Assembly (NCBI GenBank): GCA_025358575.1
Contig: JANYJA010000141.1
Location: forward strand, 1 to 36,907
Length of the DNA: 36,907 nucleotides
Source of the DNA: Terriglobia bacterium
Lineage (GTDB): Bacteria; Acidobacteriota; Terriglobia; Bryobacterales; Bryobacteraceae
Direction: 5' to 3'
Below the pieces are notes generated by a model. It was not told the origin of the DNA. It was given only the letters and a program-made list of their open reading frames with translations, and did no database searches. This document shows positions 2,982-22,213 of the stretch, one piece after another. Every line of letters starts with the position of its first letter. Within the stretch, counting starts at the first letter, position 1. A program made the translations under genes and the position numbers.

Positions 2982-4937
2982 ATGAGTGCCAAGGCACGGT
3001 TACAAGAAACGCTCCTGCAAACGCTGAACGGTTCCATACGCCGGGCGGCGGAAAATCTGCTGATGCAGCAGCATCCGGACGGCTATTGGTGCGCGGAACT
3101 TACAGCGGATACCACGCTAGAATCGGATTATATACTTCTCGAACTGTGGCTGAATCCGCCGCAAAGCGGAGTGTGGAATCCTCCATCGCGGGCTCGCATC
3201 GACAAAGCGGCACAGTCGATTTTGGCGCGGCAACTTCCAGACGGCGGCTTCAACATCTACGTGGAAGGGCCGAGCGAAATCAGTGCCACCGTCAAAGCTT
3301 ATTTCGCCCTGAAGCTCGCGGGTATACCGATGACCGATGCGCGCATGGTGCTGGCCCGCGAACGAATCGTCGCTCTTGGCGGCATCCAGGCGGCGAATAG
3401 CTATGTCAAAGTCAATCTGAATTTGTTCGACCTTTACCCGCGCGAGCATTGCCCCAGCATTCCGCCGGAAATCGTTCTGCTGCCGGGCAAAGTGCTGTAC
3501 CAGATGTCGTCGTGGACACGCGCCATTCTAGTGGCCCTCGCGATCGTGCATGCGCACAATCCACGGCGTCCGGTTCCGGAAGGTTTCAACCTCGACGAAC
3601 TATTCGTTCCGGACAAGAGTTGCGCCCTTCCAGGCGATGACTCATGGCTCACGCTTCGCAAGGTGTTTTTCGAGTCGGACAAGATTCTCAAGCTATGGGA
3701 AAAATATGGGTTCTCGCGCATTCGCCGCATTGCAATTCGTAAGTGCGAGCATTGGATGCTGGAGCGATTCAAGAATTCGGATGGCTTGGGGGCGATCTAC
3801 CCGCCCATGATGTACGCCATCATGGCCCTCGATGTTCTGGGCTATGCGCCGGATCATCCGCTGCGCGTGGAAGCTCTGACGCAGTTTATGAAGCTGCTGG
3901 TGGATGACGGCGACCGTTTCTTTTTTCAGCCCTGCTTCTCGCCCATTTGGGACACGTCGATTGCCGCTTATGCGCTGGGCGAAGCGGGGTACGGAAATGC
4001 CCCCCAGTTGCAAAAAGCCGGTGATTGGATACTCAGCAAGGAAATTCGTCGAAAGGGCGATTGGTCGGTTAAGCGGCCTAACACGGAGCCTTCCGGGTGG
4101 GCTTTCGAATTCAATAACGAGTTTTATCCCGACATCGACGACGCTGGAATGGTGATGCTAAGCCTGCGGCATGCCCACGCGACTAACGAGTCGGCGCAGT
4201 TAGCGTGCCAGCGGCGAGCGATTGACTGGCTGCTCGCCATGCAATCGCGCGATGGCGGATGGGCGGCATTCGACGTCGATAACAACTGGGAATTTCTGAG
4301 TCAGGTTCCGTTTGCCGATCACAACGCCATGCTGGATCCGACCTGCGCCGATATCACCGGGCGAGTGCTGGAATCGTTGGCAGCGCATGGCGTTGAAAAG
4401 AATCATCCCGCGGTGCGGCGTGGCGTGGAATATCTGATTCGCACTCAAGAGGCGGACGGCAGTTGGTACGGAAGGTGGGGCGTGGCCTATGTCTACGGCA
4501 CGTGCTTCGCCCTGCGCGGTCTTGCGGCATCTGGCGAGGACGATCTTGAGCCCCACATTCAGAGAGCCAACGAATGGTTGCGCGCCTGCCAGCATGCCGA
4601 TGGCGGATGGGGCGAAAGCTGCGCCAGTTATGACAACGGAATCTACACTTCCGGGGCGAGCACGCCTTCGCAGACCGCGTGGGCGTTAATGGGATTGATG
4701 TCGGGCGGTGACGTGACTAGTTCCAGCTTGCAGCACGGCATCGATTACTTACTGGAAACGCAGCGGCCGGACGGCGCGTGGAGCGAAGAACTCGCGACGG
4801 GGACGGGCTTTCCAAAAGTCTTCTACTTGAACTACCATCTGTATCAACTTTATTTCCCGCTGATGGCTCTCGCCACATTCCGAAAGGTGAAGTCGGCGCA
4901 GCTTGCCGGCGCATCCATGGCGGGAGCGCAGCGGTAA
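2982..4937 (+). CDS. shc: Squalene-hopene cyclase
   Basis: Class II triterpene cyclase that folds squalene into hopene/hopanol at the inner membrane, the first committed step of hopanoid synthesis. The protonating DXDD motif is present as DIDD at residues 384-387, equivalent to D374-D377 of the Alicyclobacillus enzyme, inside FYPDIDDAGM. Several QW repeats are seen: QQHPDGYWCAEL near the N-terminus, RQLPDGGFNIY, MQSRDGGWAAFD, RTQEADGSWYGRWG and CQHADGGWGES. The length of 651 residues is typical. The ATG at 2982 follows a GAGAGAG ribosome site. It lies 13 bp after ispH and 3 bp before hpnA, so translation is probably coupled. No hpnC/D/E squalene synthesis genes occur in the window. Confidence 0.97.
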   Translation: MSAKARLQETLLQTLNGSIRRAAENLLMQQHPDGYWCAELTADTTLESDYILLELWLNPPQSGVWNPPSRARIDKAAQSILARQLPDGGFNIYVEGPSEISATVKAYFALKLAGIPMTDARMVLARERIVALGGIQAANSYVKVNLNLFDLYPREHCPSIPPEIVLLPGKVLYQMSSWTRAILVALAIVHAHNPRRPVPEGFNLDELFVPDKSCALPGDDSWLTLRKVFFESDKILKLWEKYGFSRIRRIAIRKCEHWMLERFKNSDGLGAIYPPMMYAIMALDVLGYAPDHPLRVEALTQFMKLLVDDGDRFFFQPCFSPIWDTSIAAYALGEAGYGNAPQLQKAGDWILSKEIRRKGDWSVKRPNTEPSGWAFEFNNEFYPDIDDAGMVMLSLRHAHATNESAQLACQRRAIDWLLAMQSRDGGWAAFDVDNNWEFLSQVPFADHNAMLDPTCADITGRVLESLAAHGVEKNHPAVRRGVEYLIRTQEADGSWYGRWGVAYVYGTCFALRGLAASGEDDLEPHIQRANEWLRACQHADGGWGESCASYDNGIYTSGASTPSQTAWALMGLMSGGDVTSSSLQHGIDYLLETQRPDGAWSEELATGTGFPKVFYLNYHLYQLYFPLMALATFRKVKSAQLAGASMAGAQR

Positions 4938-4940
4938 CGG

Positions 4941-5915
4941 TTGCGCCCGACTCTGGTCACTGGCGCTTCCGGATTTATCGGCTGGCACGTTGCGCGCGCT
5001 CTTCTTGAGCGAGGCCACACGGTGCGAGCGCTGGCGCGTCCGAACAGCAAAATCGGGGGGCTTGCAATCGAAAAGGCGACCGGCGACCTTCGCGACGCCG
5101 ATTCACTTCAGCGTGCCGTCGCTGGTTGCGGGCTGGTCTTTCACGTGGCGGCCGACTACCGATTGTGGGCTGCCGATCCAACTGAGCTATATCAATCAAA
5201 CGTCGACGGTACTCGCAATCTTCTGGAAGCGGCGCGCGCCGCGGGGGTCGAAAGGTTCGTCTACACCAGCACAGTCGGCTGCATCGGCATTCCTCCGGGG
5301 GGCGTGGGCGACGAGACGCAGCCCGTTGCGATTGAACAGATGTCCGGGGCTTACAAGCGTTCTAAGTTCCTGGCGGAGCAGGTTGCGCTTGAGTTCGCGC
5401 GCGCCGGTTTCCCGGTGGTCATCGTGAACCCCACGGCCCCGGTGGGCGACCACGACGTGAAGCCTACTCCTACCGGCAAGATCATCCTCGATTTCATCAG
5501 AGGTGACATGCCAGCCTATATCGATACCGGATTAAACTTGGTTGACGTGCGTGATGTGGCGCTGGGTCACGTACTCGCCGCTGAAAAAGGGCGGGTGGGG
5601 GAACGGTACATATTGGGTAACCGGAACATGACGCTGCGCGAGATTCTGGAGATGATGGCGCGGATTACGGGTAAGAAGGCACCCACGATTCAGCTTCCAT
5701 ATGCGGTGGCGTATGCCGCGGGCGTGGTGACGACGGCTTGGGCGAAGGTTTCGGGGAAGCCGCCACGCGCACCGCTCGATGCGGTAAAGATGGCGCGGAA
5801 GAAGATGTTCGTGAGCCACGCGAAGGCCGAGCGCGAGCTTGGGTTTCATCCGGGACCCGTGGAAGATGCTTTGCGCCGAGCGGTGGAGTGGTTTGACGAA
5901 TCGTTCAGTGCCTAA
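4941..5915 (+). CDS. hpnA: Hopanoid-associated sugar epimerase HpnA
   Basis: Short-chain dehydrogenase/epimerase of the extended SDR type, linked to hopanoid clusters and thought to act on the sugar-derived side chain of extended hopanoids. The NAD(P)-binding motif TGASGFIG is at residues 6-13. The catalytic Ser-Tyr-Lys set shows as YTSTVG followed by YKRSK. VNPTAPVG and NLVDVRDVA are typical of HpnA. The 324-residue length fits the family. The start is a TTG at 4941, 3 bp after the shc stop; it gives the standard N-terminus RPTLVTGASG, and no better ATG lies nearby. Last gene of the ispH-shc-hpnA operon; convergent with tsaB. Confidence 0.93.
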   Translation: MRPTLVTGASGFIGWHVARALLERGHTVRALARPNSKIGGLAIEKATGDLRDADSLQRAVAGCGLVFHVAADYRLWAADPTELYQSNVDGTRNLLEAARAAGVERFVYTSTVGCIGIPPGGVGDETQPVAIEQMSGAYKRSKFLAEQVALEFARAGFPVVIVNPTAPVGDHDVKPTPTGKIILDFIRGDMPAYIDTGLNLVDVRDVALGHVLAAEKGRVGERYILGNRNMTLREILEMMARITGKKAPTIQLPYAVAYAAGVVTTAWAKVSGKPPRAPLDAVKMARKKMFVSHAKAERELGFHPGPVEDALRRAVEWFDESFSA

Positions 5916-5929: not shown

Positions 5930-5956
5930 ATTCTTCTATATTCAGTGAGAGTTAAC

Positions 5957-6604
5957 CTACGGTTTGAACAGCAGCTCGGCATCGGAACGCCGGACATAGT
6001 TGGCGTCAAGAAATGCCGAGTGGCGAGAGCGCCGGGCTGCGATGGAGCCGATAGAGGAAGCAATCGCGCGCGGGGCGTTGATTACAGAGCAGTCGGCGAA
6101 ACGAGTGCCGCTCAGCGCGGGGCGGAATGGTGCAAAGTCGTTGGCAATGAATTCGACCGGCCCTGGGGGAAGCTGGTCCAAAAACGCCGGGAATGGCAGG
6201 ACGGACTCAGCCATTGTGGCGTCGCCATAGAGAGCGGCGTAAACTTCACCGCGGCGGGCGTCGATGATGACGGCGCGGCGCGGACCGGTTCCGAACTCGG
6301 CGAGAGCTTCCAGATTCGAGACGCCGTCAGCAGGCTTGCCAGTAGCTTCGGCGAGTCCCGCAATGCATGCGAGACCGATACGAACGCCGGTAAAAGATCC
6401 GGGGCCGGAGGCAGCGGCGAAAAGAGCGATGTCGCTTACGCTGAGGCTATTCCGGCGCAGCAAACGCTCGATGTTCTCGAACAGAATGTGGCCAAAGCCG
6501 TCAGGCGCGTGCAGCGGGATCTGGTCGATTGTTTCAACGGCTGTGACAAGCGCAATGCTGCCGAATTCGCGCGTGGTATCGAGCGCAAGAATCAGCACGC
6601 TCAC
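5957..6604 (-). CDS. tsaB: tRNA threonylcarbamoyladenosine synthesis protein TsaB
   Basis: Non-catalytic ASKHA-fold partner that dimerises with TsaD and, with TsaE, places threonylcarbamoyl on A37 of ANN-decoding tRNAs. The N-terminus MSVLILALDTT is the family hallmark, followed by the GPGSFTGVRIGLA motif (about residues 68-80) and ALYGD-type strands. The 215-residue length is typical. The ATG overlaps the stop of the upstream DUF5060 gene by 4 bp, so the two are co-transcribed although functionally unrelated. TsaD and TsaE are not in the window. Confidence 0.92.
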   Translation of the reverse strand: MSVLILALDTTREFGSIALVTAVETIDQIPLHAPDGFGHILFENIERLLRRNSLSVSDIALFAAASGPGSFTGVRIGLACIAGLAEATGKPADGVSNLEALAEFGTGPRRAVIIDARRGEVYAALYGDATMAESVLPFPAFLDQLPPGPVEFIANDFAPFRPALSGTRFADCSVINAPRAIASSIGSIAARRSRHSAFLDANYVRRSDAELLFKP

Positions 6605-8385
6605 TGCGTCAGCTCGTAATTGCGATCAACCTGGTAGAGCTTGCCGAGAGCGTTTAACCCATAAGCGCGCAGGTGGATCGATCCGGGGATGCGACGCGCA
6701 ATATTGGATGGGATATCCAGGATTCCCTGGGGTCCGGTGCCGACGATTCGATAACTTTGCCCGTCCGCGGTTACTTCGGCGGTCCAGAGATAAAGCATGC
6801 TTTTATTGGCGCGCGTCTCGCGTTTGAGTTTGATTTTGTAGGGAGCCGCGCGGTGAATCGAGATGGAGTCCGATGAGGGATCGACAACGTCGAAGGGCAC
6901 CTTGGCAGGGTCGGATTCAATCTCCTGTTGCGGCACCAGTTGGGATTCGAACTTGTAACTCTTTAGAAGGGAGGCTTTATGGCCCTCCCGGTAGAGATGC
7001 AGCACCCAGTCGTGATTACGGTCGGGCGGCTCGCCGACGTAACGGTCGACTTTTTCGCTCTTGAAGTCCAACGATTCTCCCGTGACGGGGTTGAACCAGG
7101 TCACGTCGTATCTGTGCTTGGCATCAAGCTGGACTTCCACGGGACCGGGTTTTTCGACGTAGACAATGTATTCGACCTCTTCAAGCCCGAGCGCGCGGCC
7201 GCCGACCACATCGAAGAACGGCTCCAGTTCCCAGTGCCGCGTGCCGGAAAAGAATTTGTACCAGAAGGTCATTTGGCTGGCGGCCTCCTCGTTAGGGGTG
7301 GCGGCCTCCGGATACTGGCCATTCATGGCGGCGTTCCAGAGACGATGGCGAAATTCCTCCGTCGAGATGTGGGCTGTGGCGAAGTTATTGATGGCCGGCT
7401 GGGTGAAGATCTGATGTTCAATTGCGCCCACGGCGTTGTCTGATGAGGTGTAAGTCAGGAAGTGCATCCAACCGTCGTCGGCGAGCGGGGAGGAGGACGC
7501 AAAAGTACCGGTGGAGCGCGCGTGATGGTAGGGGTCATTTGCCTTTAGGAAATCACCGATTTCGCGCGTGAGATCCCGGCCGGAAGGGACCGAATCGAAG
7601 GCACCGAGCAGTTCCCAAGTGATGTTGAGGGGCGCAAATCGGGCGATGATGACACGGAGCAGAGCTTCACGCTGGCTGCGATCCGGGAATAAGCTAGCGA
7701 TTTGGCCGTGGGGGTCGAGGACCACATCGGCAACGATTCCTTTGCGGTTCATGAATTGAACGCGCCCATCGATTTCGCGAAGGTAAGCGGGATCGAAGCC
7801 ATTTTGAGGAGCGAGAGAGATCCGCAGGTGGTTGAATTTTTGGGTGGCGCGGTCGGTGACCGTTCGTTCGAAATCGGCGGGGGTGAGGGGATCGGGCAGG
7901 ACGGCGCCCATCCAAAGGTGAGGTTTTTGATAGCCGCTTGCGGCGTCGACGGTGTAGGAAAAATGGTGGGTGTTGGCGGGCTGGACAAAGCCGGGGGAGT
8001 CCGAAGCGGTGGCCGTGAAAACTCCTTGCTTCTCGTTGAAGGCAGAGATGTTACTGGTGACGCGGAAGTCCCAGGTGCCGGGTTCCAGAGGGGTGATACG
8101 GAGGACCATGCGAATGCCGCCATCCCAAAATGCCCCAACGCGATAAGTCTTGTGACTGGGCGCGCGGAATTCGGCGTGAAGATCGATGGATTGGTGGGGT
8201 TTCGGATGAATTGTGGCGTCGGCAGGGGAAAGATCGAAGGCGATGTCGCACGGCGAGAAGACAGGGGTTGCGGGACAAATTGTCTGAGCGGGAGCGGGAA
8301 GAAAAAGTGTAAAAAAGGCAGCCGCGACAAGCAGTGGCGCGTGGACGTGGAGCGTCATGCACTTATGGTAGCGTGGCGGCATCAT
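6601..8385 (-). CDS. Secreted DUF5060-type glycoside hydrolase-like protein
   Basis: Exported protein of about 594 residues. The start chosen is the ATG at 8385, which has GAGG five bases upstream; ATGs at 8418, 8382 and 8358 are alternatives. A signal peptide follows: a basic n-region (MMPPRYHK), a hydrophobic core (LLVAAAFFTLFLP) and likely cleavage near APAQT. Next is a beta-sandwich like DUF5060 (AEFRAPSHKTYRVGAFWDGG, PLEPGTWDFRVTS), then a region like the TIM barrel of DUF4038/apiosidase-like hydrolases (FNHLRISLAP, ADVVLDPHGQIA), and a C-terminal beta domain (YDVTWFNPVTGE). The stretch where relatives carry a catalytic Asn-Glu reads ITWELLGAFD, so activity is uncertain. A role in polysaccharide use outside the cytoplasm is inferred. 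Confidence 0.65.
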   Translation of the reverse strand: MMPPRYHKCMTLHVHAPLLVAAAFFTLFLPAPAQTICPATPVFSPCDIAFDLSPADATIHPKPHQSIDLHAEFRAPSHKTYRVGAFWDGGIRMVLRITPLEPGTWDFRVTSNISAFNEKQGVFTATASDSPGFVQPANTHHFSYTVDAASGYQKPHLWMGAVLPDPLTPADFERTVTDRATQKFNHLRISLAPQNGFDPAYLREIDGRVQFMNRKGIVADVVLDPHGQIASLFPDRSQREALLRVIIARFAPLNITWELLGAFDSVPSGRDLTREIGDFLKANDPYHHARSTGTFASSSPLADDGWMHFLTYTSSDNAVGAIEHQIFTQPAINNFATAHISTEEFRHRLWNAAMNGQYPEAATPNEEAASQMTFWYKFFSGTRHWELEPFFDVVGGRALGLEEVEYIVYVEKPGPVEVQLDAKHRYDVTWFNPVTGESLDFKSEKVDRYVGEPPDRNHDWVLHLYREGHKASLLKSYKFESQLVPQQEIESDPAKVPFDVVDPSSDSISIHRAAPYKIKLKRETRANKSMLYLWTAEVTADGQSYRIVGTGPQGILDIPSNIARRIPGSIHLRAYGLNALGKLYQVDRNYELTQ

Positions 8386-8534
8386 CGTTACCTCGCAACT
8401 AATTCGTAACTTCAGCATCTGATGGACTTATGCCGGGGGGAAAGCGCAGAAATCAGCACTAGGGTTTGCACCTTCCGTTTAGCTGGCTTATTGACCATAC
8501 AAGAAAGAAAACAAGCAGTTTAAGGGTTTTGGTA

Positions 8535-8604: not shown

Positions 8605-10719
8605 ATGCAAAAGCCGATGAAGTACCTGGAGAAGGCGGTCACGGTCGCAGCTGGCGCAGCTTGGAACGTGTTTGATCGCCTCAACCAAATTCATCAGAAC
8701 CCTTCTTTCACTCCCAAGTGGTCGGATAAACCGCTCCTCAAGTCCTACCAGAAGACGAAACCGCCACTCGGCTGGCCCCGCACTACCGATTCCCTTTGTC
8801 CGCGCTGCATTCCCGAGATCCGGCAGCAGATTGTGGATGGCAAGATTCCCCACGAGATCCTGCTGAACGACAAGGTCGGCGAGATCAAAGCGCAGATTAT
8901 CGAACGCGATGGCCAGATTCTGATGGTGAAGGACTGCCCGATTCACGGACATTTTGAAGACGTGATGGCCATCGATACGGCGTTTTTCAAACACCTCGAA
9001 GATGTTTTCCCGGGCCGCGACATCCGCGCCCACAATGACGAAAAGTTACACAATCACGGGACCAGCACGGTGAAGCACGGGCGCGGCTCGGTGCTGACGA
9101 TCGATTTGACCAACCGCTGCAACATGATGTGCGATCCGTGTTTCATGGACGCTAATCAGGTGGGCTTCGTCCACGAATTATCGTGGGAAGAGATCCAGAC
9201 CATGCTGGACAATGCGATCTCAATCAAGCCGCGGCGGCAGATGTCGGTGCAATTTTCGGGCGGCGAGCCAACGCTTTCGCCTCACTTCTTGAAAGCGGTA
9301 GCGTATTCGCGCAAGGTTGGGTATAACAGCGTGCAGGCGGCAACCAACGGGATCGAGTTCGCCAAGAGCCCGGAATTTTGCAGGGAATCAGCGAAGGCTG
9401 GGTTGCGGTACGCGTATTTGCAGTTCGACGGGATCGGGAATGCGGCGAATTCGCACCGGGCGGTAGGCAATCTGTTCGATGTAAAGCTTCGGGCAATTGA
9501 GAATCTGCATTCGGCGGGCGTCGATATTGTGCCGGTGACTACGATCATCAACGGAGTGAACAACGAGCAGGTCGGACACATTATTCAGTTTGCGCTAGAT
9601 AATCCGAAGAAAATTTCATTCCTTTCATTTCAGCCGGTCTCGTTCACGGGCCGCGATGAAGCAGTGACCGATGAACGCCGCGCGGCACAGCGTTATACGC
9701 TTTCGCACTTGGCGCTCGATGTGAAGAATCAAGTCGGCATGGGCGAACCCACCCGCGACTGGTTCCCGATTTCATTCATGAGCACGTTTTCCGACTGGGC
9801 CGATCTAGTGCATGGACCGAGCGCGGATTGGGGTCAGTTGAGCTGCGGGTGCCATCCGAATTGCGGCATCGGCATGGCGCTGATGATTGACAAGGAAACC
9901 AAGGAATTCGCGCCTGTGACGGCATTCTTGAATGCCGAACAGTTGTCGAAGGACGTGGCGCGGATCAACGATGCCGGGCGCGGGAAGTCTCTGTCCATCT
10001 TCGGTATCTCGCTCGCGATGCTGCGCAATTACGACCCGTTCATGGCGCCGAGCACGTTCCGGCTGACGGACATGCTGACGAAGTTCGATAAGTGCTTCGG
10101 CGGAACCAAGCGCAACTACGGCAAGGTTACAGCGGACCGCACCGAGAAAGATATCGAGATGCGGCGGCAGGATCGCTGGAACTTCCTATTCATAGCGGGA
10201 ATGTGGTTCCAGGATCTCTTCAATTACGACTTCCGTCGAACGGAACAGTGCATTATTCCTTACGCCACGCAGGAAGGCGAAATTTCCTTCTGCGCGTATA
10301 ACACCGGTGTGGGGTGGCGCAACATTATCGAGAAGATGCACATGACGGCGTCGCTTACCAAGTGGTATGAGGAGCACGGGCGTCATGAAATTTTCGCGGG
10401 CGGCAAGAACGTGGGTCTGGAGACGACGGCGCATTCACTTCGCTTGAATGACGAACACGTGGCTTTCGGACTGCAGCACGATCTGGACGATAAGGGCATC
10501 GCCAAGACGGCTCGTGAGGAGAAGACTCGGGCGCGCGATGCGAAGCTGAAGCAGTCGGCGGAAAATGCGCGGATGGCGAAGCTGTATCGCGAGCAAGTGC
10601 TCAAAGAAAAGCCGGCGGACGCGGGATTTGTGCCGCTGGGCTCGCTCGGGATTGCTCCGGCAGCGCCGGCGAAGCCGAAGGTGGAAGAGCGGGAAGAAGT
10701 GGGGAGTTTCGGCGACTAG
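8605..10719 (+). CDS. Tetraether/membrane-spanning lipid synthase-like radical SAM protein
   Basis: A 704-residue radical-SAM enzyme. The SAM cluster motif is C172-x3-C176-x2-C179 (TNRCNMMCDPCF), followed by FSGGEPTLS. An N-terminal four-ligand site, LCPRC (C65, C68) with DCPIHG (C111, H114), looks like the rubredoxin-like module of archaeal tetraether synthase Tes. C-terminal cysteines for extra clusters occur in LSCGCHPNCGIG, DKCFGG, RRTEQCIIPYAT and ISFCAYN. The last 75 residues are a charged, probably helical tail ending in a proline/alanine-rich stretch. Tes-type enzymes join two lipid tails through an sp3 C-C bond; bacterial homologues are linked to membrane-spanning iso-diabolic acid or branched GDGT lipids of Acidobacteriota. 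The assignment is by motif architecture. It is longer than, and lacks the N-terminal sequence of, the hopanoid enzyme HpnH. It is monocistronic, between a repeat-rich leader and a strong terminator. Confidence 0.75.
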   Translation: MQKPMKYLEKAVTVAAGAAWNVFDRLNQIHQNPSFTPKWSDKPLLKSYQKTKPPLGWPRTTDSLCPRCIPEIRQQIVDGKIPHEILLNDKVGEIKAQIIERDGQILMVKDCPIHGHFEDVMAIDTAFFKHLEDVFPGRDIRAHNDEKLHNHGTSTVKHGRGSVLTIDLTNRCNMMCDPCFMDANQVGFVHELSWEEIQTMLDNAISIKPRRQMSVQFSGGEPTLSPHFLKAVAYSRKVGYNSVQAATNGIEFAKSPEFCRESAKAGLRYAYLQFDGIGNAANSHRAVGNLFDVKLRAIENLHSAGVDIVPVTTIINGVNNEQVGHIIQFALDNPKKISFLSFQPVSFTGRDEAVTDERRAAQRYTLSHLALDVKNQVGMGEPTRDWFPISFMSTFSDWADLVHGPSADWGQLSCGCHPNCGIGMALMIDKETKEFAPVTAFLNAEQLSKDVARINDAGRGKSLSIFGISLAMLRNYDPFMAPSTFRLTDMLTKFDKCFGGTKRNYGKVTADRTEKDIEMRRQDRWNFLFIAGMWFQDLFNYDFRRTEQCIIPYATQEGEISFCAYNTGVGWRNIIEKMHMTASLTKWYEEHGRHEIFAGGKNVGLETTAHSLRLNDEHVAFGLQHDLDDKGIAKTAREEKTRARDAKLKQSAENARMAKLYREQVLKEKPADAGFVPLGSLGIAPAAPAKPKVEEREEVGSFGD

Positions 10720-20633: not shown

Positions 20634-20963
20634 CTATAGAGTAACTTCCTGACCCAGGTGTTTGCTGATGACTGTACCCATCAGTTTCATGAGCGACTCG
20701 CCCGACTCGCGATGCACAAATGCGCTTTGCACCACGTCCCACTCCAACTTGAAACTGCGCGACAGCGCCGAAACCCAAATCTGCCGGACGGGCGTATTCG
20801 GACTTATCACGAACTTCGCCGGGGGGTCCACAAACTCCACCGTCACCGCGCCCGCCTGCGAATCTACTTCGAAGTCGAAATCGTCCCCGGCCGACATCAT
20901 CGCGCGCGTCACGGAATTAAGCGCGTGGTCGGCGTGCTTCTTGAATTCCTGTTCATCCATCAT
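20634..20963 (-). CDS. cyaY: Frataxin-like iron protein CyaY
   Basis: Small acidic cytosolic protein of the frataxin family, which binds iron and tunes iron-sulfur cluster assembly on IscS. The start at 20963 (MMDEQEFKKHAD) is 2 bp after the Nramp stop and gives 109 residues, the normal size. Features are an acidic first helix (DEQEFKKHADHAL, GDDFDFEVDS), the sheet segment GAVTVEF, and the strongly conserved VISPNTPVRQIWVSALSRSFKLEW. A longer upstream frame from 21038 would overlap the Nramp gene and is not needed. It sits directly downstream of a metal-carrier gene, which fits coordinated metal handling. Confidence 0.87.
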   Translation of the reverse strand: MMDEQEFKKHADHALNSVTRAMMSAGDDFDFEVDSQAGAVTVEFVDPPAKFVISPNTPVRQIWVSALSRSFKLEWDVVQSAFVHRESGESLMKLMGTVISKHLGQEVTL

Positions 20964-20965
20964 GC

Positions 20966-22213
20966 TTAATGCAATCCTCGCAAACTGATCCCCGCGTACG
21001 CCGCGGTCAACCCAATCATCACCACTACCGTAGCCCACGCGATGATGTTATACGCCCGCGAATTGGTCCACTCCTTCATTAGATTATGTTTTTTCATCAG
21101 CAAGATCATGAAGATCAAAACGAAAGGCAGCAGCACGCCATTAACGACCTGCGAAAACAAAATCATCTGGAAGAGCGGGAAATTTGGAATCAGGATTACG
21201 CCCGCACCCACAACAATCAACAGCGTGTAGAGCCAATAGAAAATAGGGGCCTCGCGAAAAGTTTTGCTCACTCCCGATTCGAATCCCAGCCCCTCGCATA
21301 CCGAGTACGCCGTCGAGAGCGGCAGAATGCACGCCGCAAACACCGAAGCGTTGAGCAGGCCTCCGCTAAATAAAAGGAACGCGTATTGCCCAAAAGGTTT
21401 CAACCCTTGCGCCGCCTCCGCCCCGTCGTTAATGTTCTTCGGCCCCGTCGACCAGATCGCGCCCGCGCACGCCACAATGATGAAGAAGGCAATGATCTGC
21501 GTGATGAAGCACCCCACGATCACTTCCACGCGCGATTCCTTGTACTCGCGCACGGTGATTCCCTTCTCCACGACAGCGGCCTGCAAGTAGAACTGCATCC
21601 ACGGCGCGATGGTGGTCCCCACCATCCCGATCAGCATGTAGATATATTCGTTGTCGAGCATCAAGACCGGTTTCACGCTGTAGAGTGCCGCTTGTTTCCA
21701 ATCCGGCTTCACGAGAAATCCCGAGATGATATAGGTCACGTAGATCACGCACGCCAGCAGAAAGATCTTCTCGATGCTGCGGTAGTTGCCTTTCACCGCG
21801 AGGAACCAAACCGCCGCCGCACCCAGTGGCACCGAAATATACCGGCTCACCCCGAACAGGCCGAGCGAACTCGCAATGCCCGCGAATTCGCACATGATGT
21901 TGGTCAGATTCACCAGCACCAACAGCGCCATGATGATGAACGTCATGCGCAGCCCGAACTCTTCGCGAATCAGATCGGAGAGGCCCTTGCCGGTGACCGC
22001 GCCCATGCGCGAGCACATCTCCTGGGTCATGATCAGCACTACCGTAATCGGCAGCAGTGTCCACAACGGCAGATAGCCCCAGCGCGCGCCCGCTTGCGAG
22101 TAGGTCACGATACCGCCCGCGTCATTGTCAACCACCGCGGTGATCAGACCTGGCCCCAAAACGGCCATGAACACGACGATGTGTTGTCGAAAGCGGCTGA
22201 CGAAAGTTGGCAT
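20966..22213 (-). CDS. Nramp-related metal transporter with altered metal site
   Basis: A 415-residue carrier with about 11 membrane helices and the Nramp (SLC11) fold. GPGLITAVVDNDAGG aligns with the TM1 motif, and YSQAGARWGY with the start of the next segment; NIMCEFAGIASSLGLFG matches TM3. Normal Nramp proteins bind Mn/Fe with TM1 DPGN and TM6 MPH. Here TM1 reads D31-A-G-G34 and TM6 reads A203-P-W205-M (GTTIAPWMQ). The Asp is kept, but the Asn, Met and His positions are Gly, Ala and Trp. Loss of the Met is known to relax selection against hard ions such as Mg2+ or Ca2+. It starts 3 bp after a PRC/MgtE_N/CBS gene, so magnesium or another hard metal is a reasonable substrate by inference. 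Confidence 0.85.
   Translation of the reverse strand: MPTFVSRFRQHIVVFMAVLGPGLITAVVDNDAGGIVTYSQAGARWGYLPLWTLLPITVVLIMTQEMCSRMGAVTGKGLSDLIREEFGLRMTFIIMALLVLVNLTNIMCEFAGIASSLGLFGVSRYISVPLGAAAVWFLAVKGNYRSIEKIFLLACVIYVTYIISGFLVKPDWKQAALYSVKPVLMLDNEYIYMLIGMVGTTIAPWMQFYLQAAVVEKGITVREYKESRVEVIVGCFITQIIAFFIIVACAGAIWSTGPKNINDGAEAAQGLKPFGQYAFLLFSGGLLNASVFAACILPLSTAYSVCEGLGFESGVSKTFREAPIFYWLYTLLIVVGAGVILIPNFPLFQMILFSQVVNGVLLPFVLIFMILLMKKHNLMKEWTNSRAYNIIAWATVVVMIGLTAAYAGISLRGLH

Follow-up and report, generated by a model that had tools for sequence, protein, structure and literature searches.

A Tes-like radical SAM protein of Acidobacteriota without the ligands of the N-terminal auxiliary cluster, a candidate for iso-diabolic acid synthesis

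The stretch of DNA analysed here (the window, a contig of 36,907 nucleotides from a Terriglobia bacterium of the Bryobacteraceae) carries a gene for a radical SAM protein that has the predicted fold of the archaeal tetraether synthase Tes and that, judging from alignment, has lost the ligands of one auxiliary cluster, the N-terminal [4Fe-4S]. The loss marks a whole clade of proteins, called clade A below; clades B and C comprise other Tes relatives, B being the canonical bacterial Tes homologues. Clade A proteins are most likely Tes-type radical SAM enzymes that do without the N-terminal cluster ligands and join two iso-C15 acyl tails of membrane glycerolipids, giving iso-diabolic acid and membrane-spanning lipids. 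The fold, the ligand set, the loss of the N-terminal site, the one-branch origin, the spread and the gene pairing were computed here; the features of the gene are collected in Table 1. A general lipid role of bacterial Tes homologues is a proposal already in print (PMC8941075, in its available text). Two points are new relative to print: the cluster-site loss in clade A, and the finding that a bacterium which produces iso-diabolic acid has no other strong candidate gene.

Table 1. Position of the clade A gene and of the sites discussed in the text (window coordinates; residue numbers are those of the window protein; Mj, M. jannaschii Tes)
Feature	Coordinates	Strand	Evidence
Clade A Tes-like radical SAM protein, 704 aa	8605..10719	+	ORF; 7TOL 1.3e-59; model pLDDT 89.2
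N-terminal helix, residues 2-29, weakly amphipathic	8608..8691	+	AlphaFold2, block pLDDT 87-97; hydrophobic moment 0.47
Rubredoxin-like iron ligands C65, C68 (putative)	8797..8808	+	104/104 clade A, 21/21 clade B
Rubredoxin-like iron ligands C111, H114 (Mj C33, H36; putative)	8935..8946	+	C111 104/104, H114 103/104 clade A
Putative remnant of N-terminal [4Fe-4S] site, residues 139-160	9019..9084	+	Alignment; block pLDDT 59-65 (141-160)
Radical SAM ligands C172, C176, C179 (CX3CX2C)	9118..9141	+	104/104 clade A, 21/21 clade B, 8/8 clade C
C414, C416 and C420 (the last a C-terminal cluster ligand by Mj alignment)	9844..9864	+	Each 104/104 clade A
M533 (Mj Met439 equivalent)	10201..10203	+	104/104 clade A, 21/21 clade B
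C549, C-terminal cluster ligand by alignment	10249..10251	+	104/104 clade A, 21/21 clade B
Y553 (Mj Tyr459 equivalent)	10261..10263	+	103/104 clade A, 21/21 clade B
C563, C-terminal cluster ligand by alignment	10291..10293	+	104/104 clade A, 21/21 clade B
C-terminal extension, residues 595-704: charged helix 636-664, disordered end	10387..10716	+	AlphaFold2 secondary structure, pLDDT

The frame opens with an ATG immediately preceded by the purine-rich stretch aggagaatagagg, and its Pfam and NCBIfam matches together with its close relatives establish it as a real gene, beyond chance. Pfam finds Radical_SAM (1e-18) and, at the N-terminus, the zinc-ribbon-like Zn_ribbon_HMPTM (2.3e-12). The top NCBIfam model is that of tetraether synthase Tes, NF045702 (6.9e-93), which covers residues 61-580; the score of 311.9 bits misses the curated cut-off of 450 bits. 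Full-length or near-full-length relatives at 77-82% identity were found in 80 named loci (the best 80 of 572), and these named relatives bear out the home of the gene in Acidobacteriota that had been proposed from the sequence alone. One of the 80 (L105) is titled Rhodanobacteraceae and may be misbinned. The motifs on which that sequence-only reading was built are also where it had placed them once the codons are checked: the radical SAM motif at C172, C176 and C179, the N-terminal site with CPRC (C65-C68) and CPIHG (C111-H114 plus G115), and the C-terminal cysteines in SCGCHPNCG (residues 413-421) and ISFCAYN (560-566), all in a protein of 704 residues whose charged tail contains 15 Ala, 11 Lys and 11 Glu across residues 600-704.

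The nearest solved structure by sequence is M. jannaschii Tes/GDGT-MAS (7TOL, 1.3e-59 with phmmer), followed at a distance by MoaA (1.7e-5). An AlphaFold2 model of the window protein, calculated from an alignment of 68 sequences (67 of 131 usable relatives plus the window protein itself), has a pLDDT of 89.2 and a pTM of 0.88. It superposes on 7TOM with a Z of 42.3 and an rmsd of 2.5 over 478 of the 498 target residues, and on 7TOL with a Z of 38.3, against 20.4 for the next protein, MoaA; Foldseek likewise returns 7TOM and 7TOL as its top two entries. A clade B protein modelled by the same procedure reaches 42.8 to Tes, against 42.3 for the clade A model, i.e. as far as the models tell, the Tes fold is covered as fully in clade A as in clade B. 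The assignment to the Tes/MSS family therefore stands, Tes being nearest both by sequence and by fold and the top matches lying inside that family. The claim that the architecture is that of tetraether synthases is only partly right: the fold and the rubredoxin-like, radical SAM and C-terminal cluster sites support it, but the N-terminal [4Fe-4S] ligands are absent and the Tes model gives 312 bits where 450 are required. Similarly, the predicted structure contains the expected rubredoxin-like module, but of the extra-cluster ligands, which form two sets, one set is missing.

According to the available text of PMC9433317, the metal sites of M. jannaschii Tes are a rubredoxin-like iron, the radical SAM cluster and two auxiliary [4Fe-4S] clusters, N-terminal and C-terminal; the former, whose role that study left open, is held by C73, C77, C80 and a histidine, and the latter has Met439 as a labile ligand. 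To compare these sites, 133 relatives (104 of clade A, 21 of clade B and 8 of clade C, left from 171 sequences after reduction by length and similarity) were aligned by MAFFT with the window protein and M. jannaschii Tes. The rubredoxin-like CX2C...CX2H site appears to be kept, as C65, C68, C111 and H114. For C65 and C68 the correspondence with C9 and C12 of the archaeal protein comes from the motif given in the available text of PMC9433317, not from the alignment, and the only exception for H114 in clade A is L015, which reads CPNCGGH. The C-terminal [4Fe-4S] site also seems intact, with C420, C549 and C563 plus M533, the cysteine ligands of the archaeal enzyme being themselves deduced from the alignment. 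The position of C420 is a cysteine in M. jannaschii Tes and in 21/21 clade B sequences, among which C414 is found in 5/21 and C416 in 15/21. Y553 is replaced in clade A by Asn in L131 only. Outside the metal sites, residues 1-40 have 2-5% identity to clade B, where the N-terminal helix is not conserved; this helix might perhaps contact the membrane or a partner. The C-terminal tail is 39-64% identical by block among close relatives, while the columns of residues 641-700 are only 28-36% occupied in the distant members of clade A.

The site that is missing had no place in the sequence-only reading, whose list of features did not mention that the window protein is devoid of the N-terminal CX3CX2C of Tes. 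In the alignment C73, C77 and C80 of M. jannaschii correspond to K147, H151 and S154. None of the 104 dereplicated clade A relatives has a cysteine at any of these positions, and all three are cysteines in 21/21 clade B and 8/8 clade C sequences. The replacements are themselves conserved in clade A (H151 in 104/104, S154 in 102/104 with Ala in the other 2), and a lone cysteine elsewhere within residues 139-160 is seen in 3/104. A further 20 clade A members from the window's own family have no CX3CX2C ahead of the radical SAM motif either, a single cysteine being present in the region in one of them. Throughout the clade A sequences aligned, the N-terminal auxiliary [4Fe-4S] cluster thus appears to have lost its ligands, a loss of which we found no description in the available text of PMC8941075 or in the open-licence literature searched. 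The prediction is a Tes-type enzyme with two [4Fe-4S] clusters, not three, and if so, clade A is a natural experiment on whether the N-terminal cluster is needed for C-C coupling. Electrons would then have to reach the radical SAM cluster otherwise, perhaps via the rubredoxin-like iron. As for the cause of the loss, COX1 is present in 55/57 genomes with clade A only, 13/21 with clade B only, 5/7 with both and 47/64 with neither. A link to oxygen is suggestive only, since the families differ and since clade A arose once, which leaves one event to explain.

This single origin is seen in a tree of 73 rows, made by a quick method from 69 of the 133 relatives, the window protein, M. jannaschii Tes and two frames of Edaphobacter aggregans, with region 138-160 omitted. 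The 43 clade A rows form one side of a branch with an SH-aLRT of 100 and a stem of 1.05; the simplest reading is therefore that the cluster site was lost once. With the root placed on clade C, whose long branches make it unsure, clade A is nested among clade B and the archaeal protein falls outside. The window protein belongs to a separate clade and not to canonical Tes. With the window protein as query, clade A was found in 64 of 149 Acidobacteriota genomes, clade B in 28 and both in 7 (G035 being scored B from two fragments, and G080 and G140 scored A from fragments). Among 135 genomes of the window's order that are at least 95% complete, a search with a clade B query at 1e-60 found either clade in 130, namely clade A in 124, clade B in 24 and both in 18. 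The window genome itself has clade A as its only strong match to the Tes model, the next scoring 60 bits.

Iso-diabolic acid resembles the alkyl chains of branched GDGTs, which are used as soil thermometers. It makes up 49.2% of the fatty acids of one acidobacterial isolate (PMC12935467, available text) and, in the available text of PMC11354219, 30.4% in Edaphobacter modestus DSM 18101, 26.4% in E. aggregans DSM 19364 and 11.8% in E. lichenicola DSM 104462. No confirmed enzyme for it in Acidobacteriota was found in the literature searched, as far as the sources were available. The genome of E. modestus DSM 18101 (L093) has a clade A protein at 313.8 bits on the Tes model and nothing else above 52.7; that of E. 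aggregans DSM 19364 (L074) has one at 314.1 bits and a clade-A-like frame of 402 residues, breaking off, at 202.5. This second, diverged frame (L175:3997-5202) stops short within its contig, and at the position of the N-terminal cluster it shows no CX3CX2C. Across 12 named genomes that are not MAGs no match exceeds the Tes cut-off, the best reaching 312-332 bits, and with a clade B query no clade B was found in six of the 12, including E. modestus and E. aggregans; the clean comparison of one gene with the phenotype amounts to one isolate, E. modestus. Zeng et al., in the available text, counted one Tes homologue in E. aggregans, put forward branched tetraethers as the product of bacterial Tes homologues, and pointed out that iso-C15 and archaeal phytanyl tails both terminate in an isopropyl group (PMC8941075). 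The activity of bacterial Tes homologues still lacks confirmation (PMC11868695, available text). From the sequence alone the gene had been proposed as a candidate for both iso-diabolic acid and branched GDGTs; the case for the former is good, and that for the latter weaker in this organism, as no DUF2229 was found in its genome. What emerges is a conserved and usually stand-alone candidate gene for iso-diabolic acid in Acidobacteriota.

Ether-forming enzymes of the PlsA/Ger type carry a DUF2229 domain. Our search for it, positive in the control genome of T. maritima, detected it in 35/149 Acidobacteriota genomes, i.e. in 19/28 with clade B, 7/57 with clade A only and 9/64 with neither; BcrAD_BadFG was also present on 4/4 of the DUF2229 proteins scanned with Pfam. 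It was not found in the window genome, which is 95.6% complete, and we therefore predict that the product in the window's organism should stay ester-bound. DUF2229 genes split into two main types, T1 and T2, T1 being defined by at least 70% identity, so that the genes of G165 (38%, no clade B) and a third gene of G180 (32%) count as other types. In the 37 genomes of the window's family, T1 occurs in 13/13 genomes with clade B and in 0/24 others, and clade A occurs in 15/15 genomes with T2 versus 15/22 without it (p 0.028, uncorrected for ancestry). On a tree of 21 family rows and 2 others clade B needs 2 changes, i.e. 1-2 independent events, and the pairing of T1 with clade B is for that reason not statistically independent of ancestry. 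There are also exceptions: DUF2229 is lacking in 7/7 clade B genomes of another family (f4) and in G048 and G056, and G005 has T1 without clade B. The co-occurrence of DUF2229 and clade B was accepted only in part as proof of shared function, since shared ancestry explains much of it. According to the available text of PMC11354219 no glycerol ethers were found in Edaphobacter strains, and earlier work, cited in the available text of PMC13274423, reported small amounts in E. aggregans. A T2 gene is present in the genomes of E. aggregans DSM 19364 and E. lichenicola M8UP30, the latter not being the type strain measured.

Within the window, an operon of the clade A gene with its neighbours was considered and rejected, since the neighbours are not conserved at the 80 named loci of clade A. 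The counts are 0/80 for each of MsrA, LytB, squalene-hopene cyclase, the HpnA-like gene, the 5945-6619 frame and the mannosyltransferase-like gene, 2/80 for each of the HemN-like and aldolase-like genes and 1/80 for the apiosidase-like gene; they are lower bounds because many loci are short. The commonest flank family is seen in 19/109 clade A loci. A hopanoid-type gene run on the + strand of the window is made up of LytB at 1961-2968, squalene-hopene cyclase at 2982-4937 and, at 4941-5915, a gene of the epimerase family. The gene at 6601-8418 (-) encodes 605 aa that include DUF5060 and give weak matches of the apiosidase-like and collagen-binding kinds; the product is perhaps of the glycoside hydrolase type. 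At 20634-22213 (-) a frataxin/CyaY-like gene lies beside an Nramp metal transporter gene, plausibly an iron-handling pair.

In five other genomes the neighbours of clade A are DUF2229 or clade B genes. In G170 and G254, which belong to one genus, a frame of ~555 residues, T2 and clade A lie on one strand, the T2 stop being ~49 and 64 bases upstream of the first clade A ATG. In G271 a divergent T2 pair is beside clade A, the first T2 gene starting ~1.6 kb away, and in G269 and G275 the next gene downstream on the same strand is clade B, in a frame that begins at most 0.1 kb past the clade A stop. These DUF2229 or clade B neighbours fit a lipid role for clade A. At 14 of the 19 family loci with flanks (L179, L254-L271) neither is beside clade A; the 19 are not a random sample, G269, G275 and G254 having been picked after the neighbour had been shown or was suggested by kinship. 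Two further observations concern the surroundings of clade A. A radical SAM-like frame (RRCNLSCAYC; L179:9577-10629) lies directly downstream of clade A in G170, and at L147 and L148 (G073 and G121, one genus) clades A and B are ~3.4-5.8 kb apart on the same strand.

The substrate, product, mechanism and activity that we propose for clade A are drawn by analogy with the archaeal enzyme. We favour the coupling of lipid tails since Tes is nearest by sequence and fold; since the radical SAM triad, the equivalents of Met439 and Tyr459 and the cysteines of the C-terminal cluster are kept; since clade A adjoins DUF2229 or canonical Tes genes in the five genomes above; and since E. modestus makes iso-diabolic acid with clade A as its only strong Tes-model match. 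Weighing against it are the missed Tes cut-off, the residues fixed by clade, the unconserved neighbours in the window and Candidatus Solibacter usitatus, which, in the available text of PMC10087280, has branched tetraethers, no iso-diabolic acid and two Tes homologues. If the enzyme works like its M. jannaschii counterpart, the C172/C176/C179 cluster would bind SAM and cleave it to a 5'-deoxyadenosyl radical, which would abstract a hydrogen atom from the methyl group at the end of one tail. Until a second SAM turnover produces the partner radical, the resulting carbon radical could be parked on a cluster sulphide at the C-terminal site (C420, C549 and C563, and loosely bound M533); attack by the partner radical would then form the C-C bond. 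Residues altered near M533 and Y553 may fit the lipid, which differs from the archaeal one. Two routes to branched tetraethers are described in the available text of PMC10087280, one by which iso-diabolic acid is made first and one by which the diether is. At this point we may only speculate that the two routes correspond to the two Tes clades with their different DUF2229 partners: clade A, which lacks the N-terminal cluster and would suit aerobic cells, would couple ester lipids and make the bulk of the iso-diabolic acid of soil Acidobacteriota, with T2 where ethers are made, and clade B with T1 would handle ether lipids. We put this forward as a possibility that is somewhat doubtful; if it is true, Tes chemistry needs no N-terminal [4Fe-4S] cluster.

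One alternative keeps the lipid substrate and changes the product: a Tes-fold enzyme could join tails other than iso-C15, couple within one lipid, or cross-link lipids that already span the membrane. Between residues 93 and 589 there are twelve columns in which clade A is invariant for one state and clade B for another; the lost cysteines account for two of them and a gap for one. Since several of the twelve adjoin M533 and Y553 (W534, P552), substrate or product may differ. The clade-specific fixed residues of the C-terminal part, W534, T546, P552, Q556, S561 and W571, point the same way, and so does the coexistence of clades A and B, side by side in G269 and G275, which suggests jobs that are not identical. 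Against this, M533, Y553 and all ligands of the C-terminal cluster are retained, and in E. modestus, which has iso-diabolic acid, nothing but clade A matches the Tes model strongly. We hold this alternative to be unlikely.

It is more improbable still that iso-diabolic acid comes from an unrelated or very distant enzyme of the Mss type and that clade A modifies something else. Mss has reportedly been identified in other bacteria (by Sahonero-Canavesi in 2022, cited in PMC13274423). But nothing apart from clade A exceeds 52.7 bits in E. modestus, clade A has a DUF2229 or canonical Tes gene as its neighbour in five genomes, and Mss models are reported to have the same catalytic architecture as Tes (PMC13274423, available text), so that a match to the Tes model would be expected of such an enzyme. 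As to a radical SAM enzyme unconnected with lipids, of the TrsS, MoaA or AhbC kind and having only the fold in common with Tes, weak to moderate scores do exist on the corresponding NCBIfam models: 206 bits for TrsS (NF045646, whose cut-off of 490 bits is missed), 76 for NirJ1, 67 for AhbC and 60 for MoaA. They are all far under their cut-offs and cover about residues 93-378 or less, the Tes model scores highest over a much longer stretch, and the Z to Tes is about twice that to MoaA; we regard this last alternative as very improbable.

Compared with known systems, the window protein is closest to archaeal Tes (MJ0619; 7TOL, 7TOM), at 26-30% identity in structural alignments. Shared by the two are the fold, the rubredoxin-like CX2C...CX2H, the radical SAM triad, the ligands of the C-terminal cluster with the labile Met, and the Tyr459 equivalent. 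The archaeal enzyme has the N-terminal [4Fe-4S] cysteines, whereas the window protein does not; conversely, it is the window protein that has an N-terminal helix, a C-terminal extension of ~110 residues, cysteines at 414 and 416 where M. jannaschii has Leu and Ser, and a rubredoxin loop that is 42 residues long from C68 to C111, versus 20 in M. jannaschii. Clade B is found in the same phylum, sometimes in the same genome and in two genomes adjacent to clade A, and is 31-37% identical to the window protein. In contrast to clade A, it keeps the N-terminal CX3CX2C (21/21) and goes with another DUF2229 type, T1; the member for which bits are shown scores 551.9, over the NCBIfam cut-off that the window protein fails to reach. 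The ether-lipid enzymes PlsAR/Ger are a possible partner and not a relative: DUF2229 adjoins clade A in three genomes, and the window genome gives no DUF2229 match. With Mss, the bacterial membrane-spanning lipid synthase, the window protein has the proposed job in common, the tail-to-tail coupling of fatty acyl chains.
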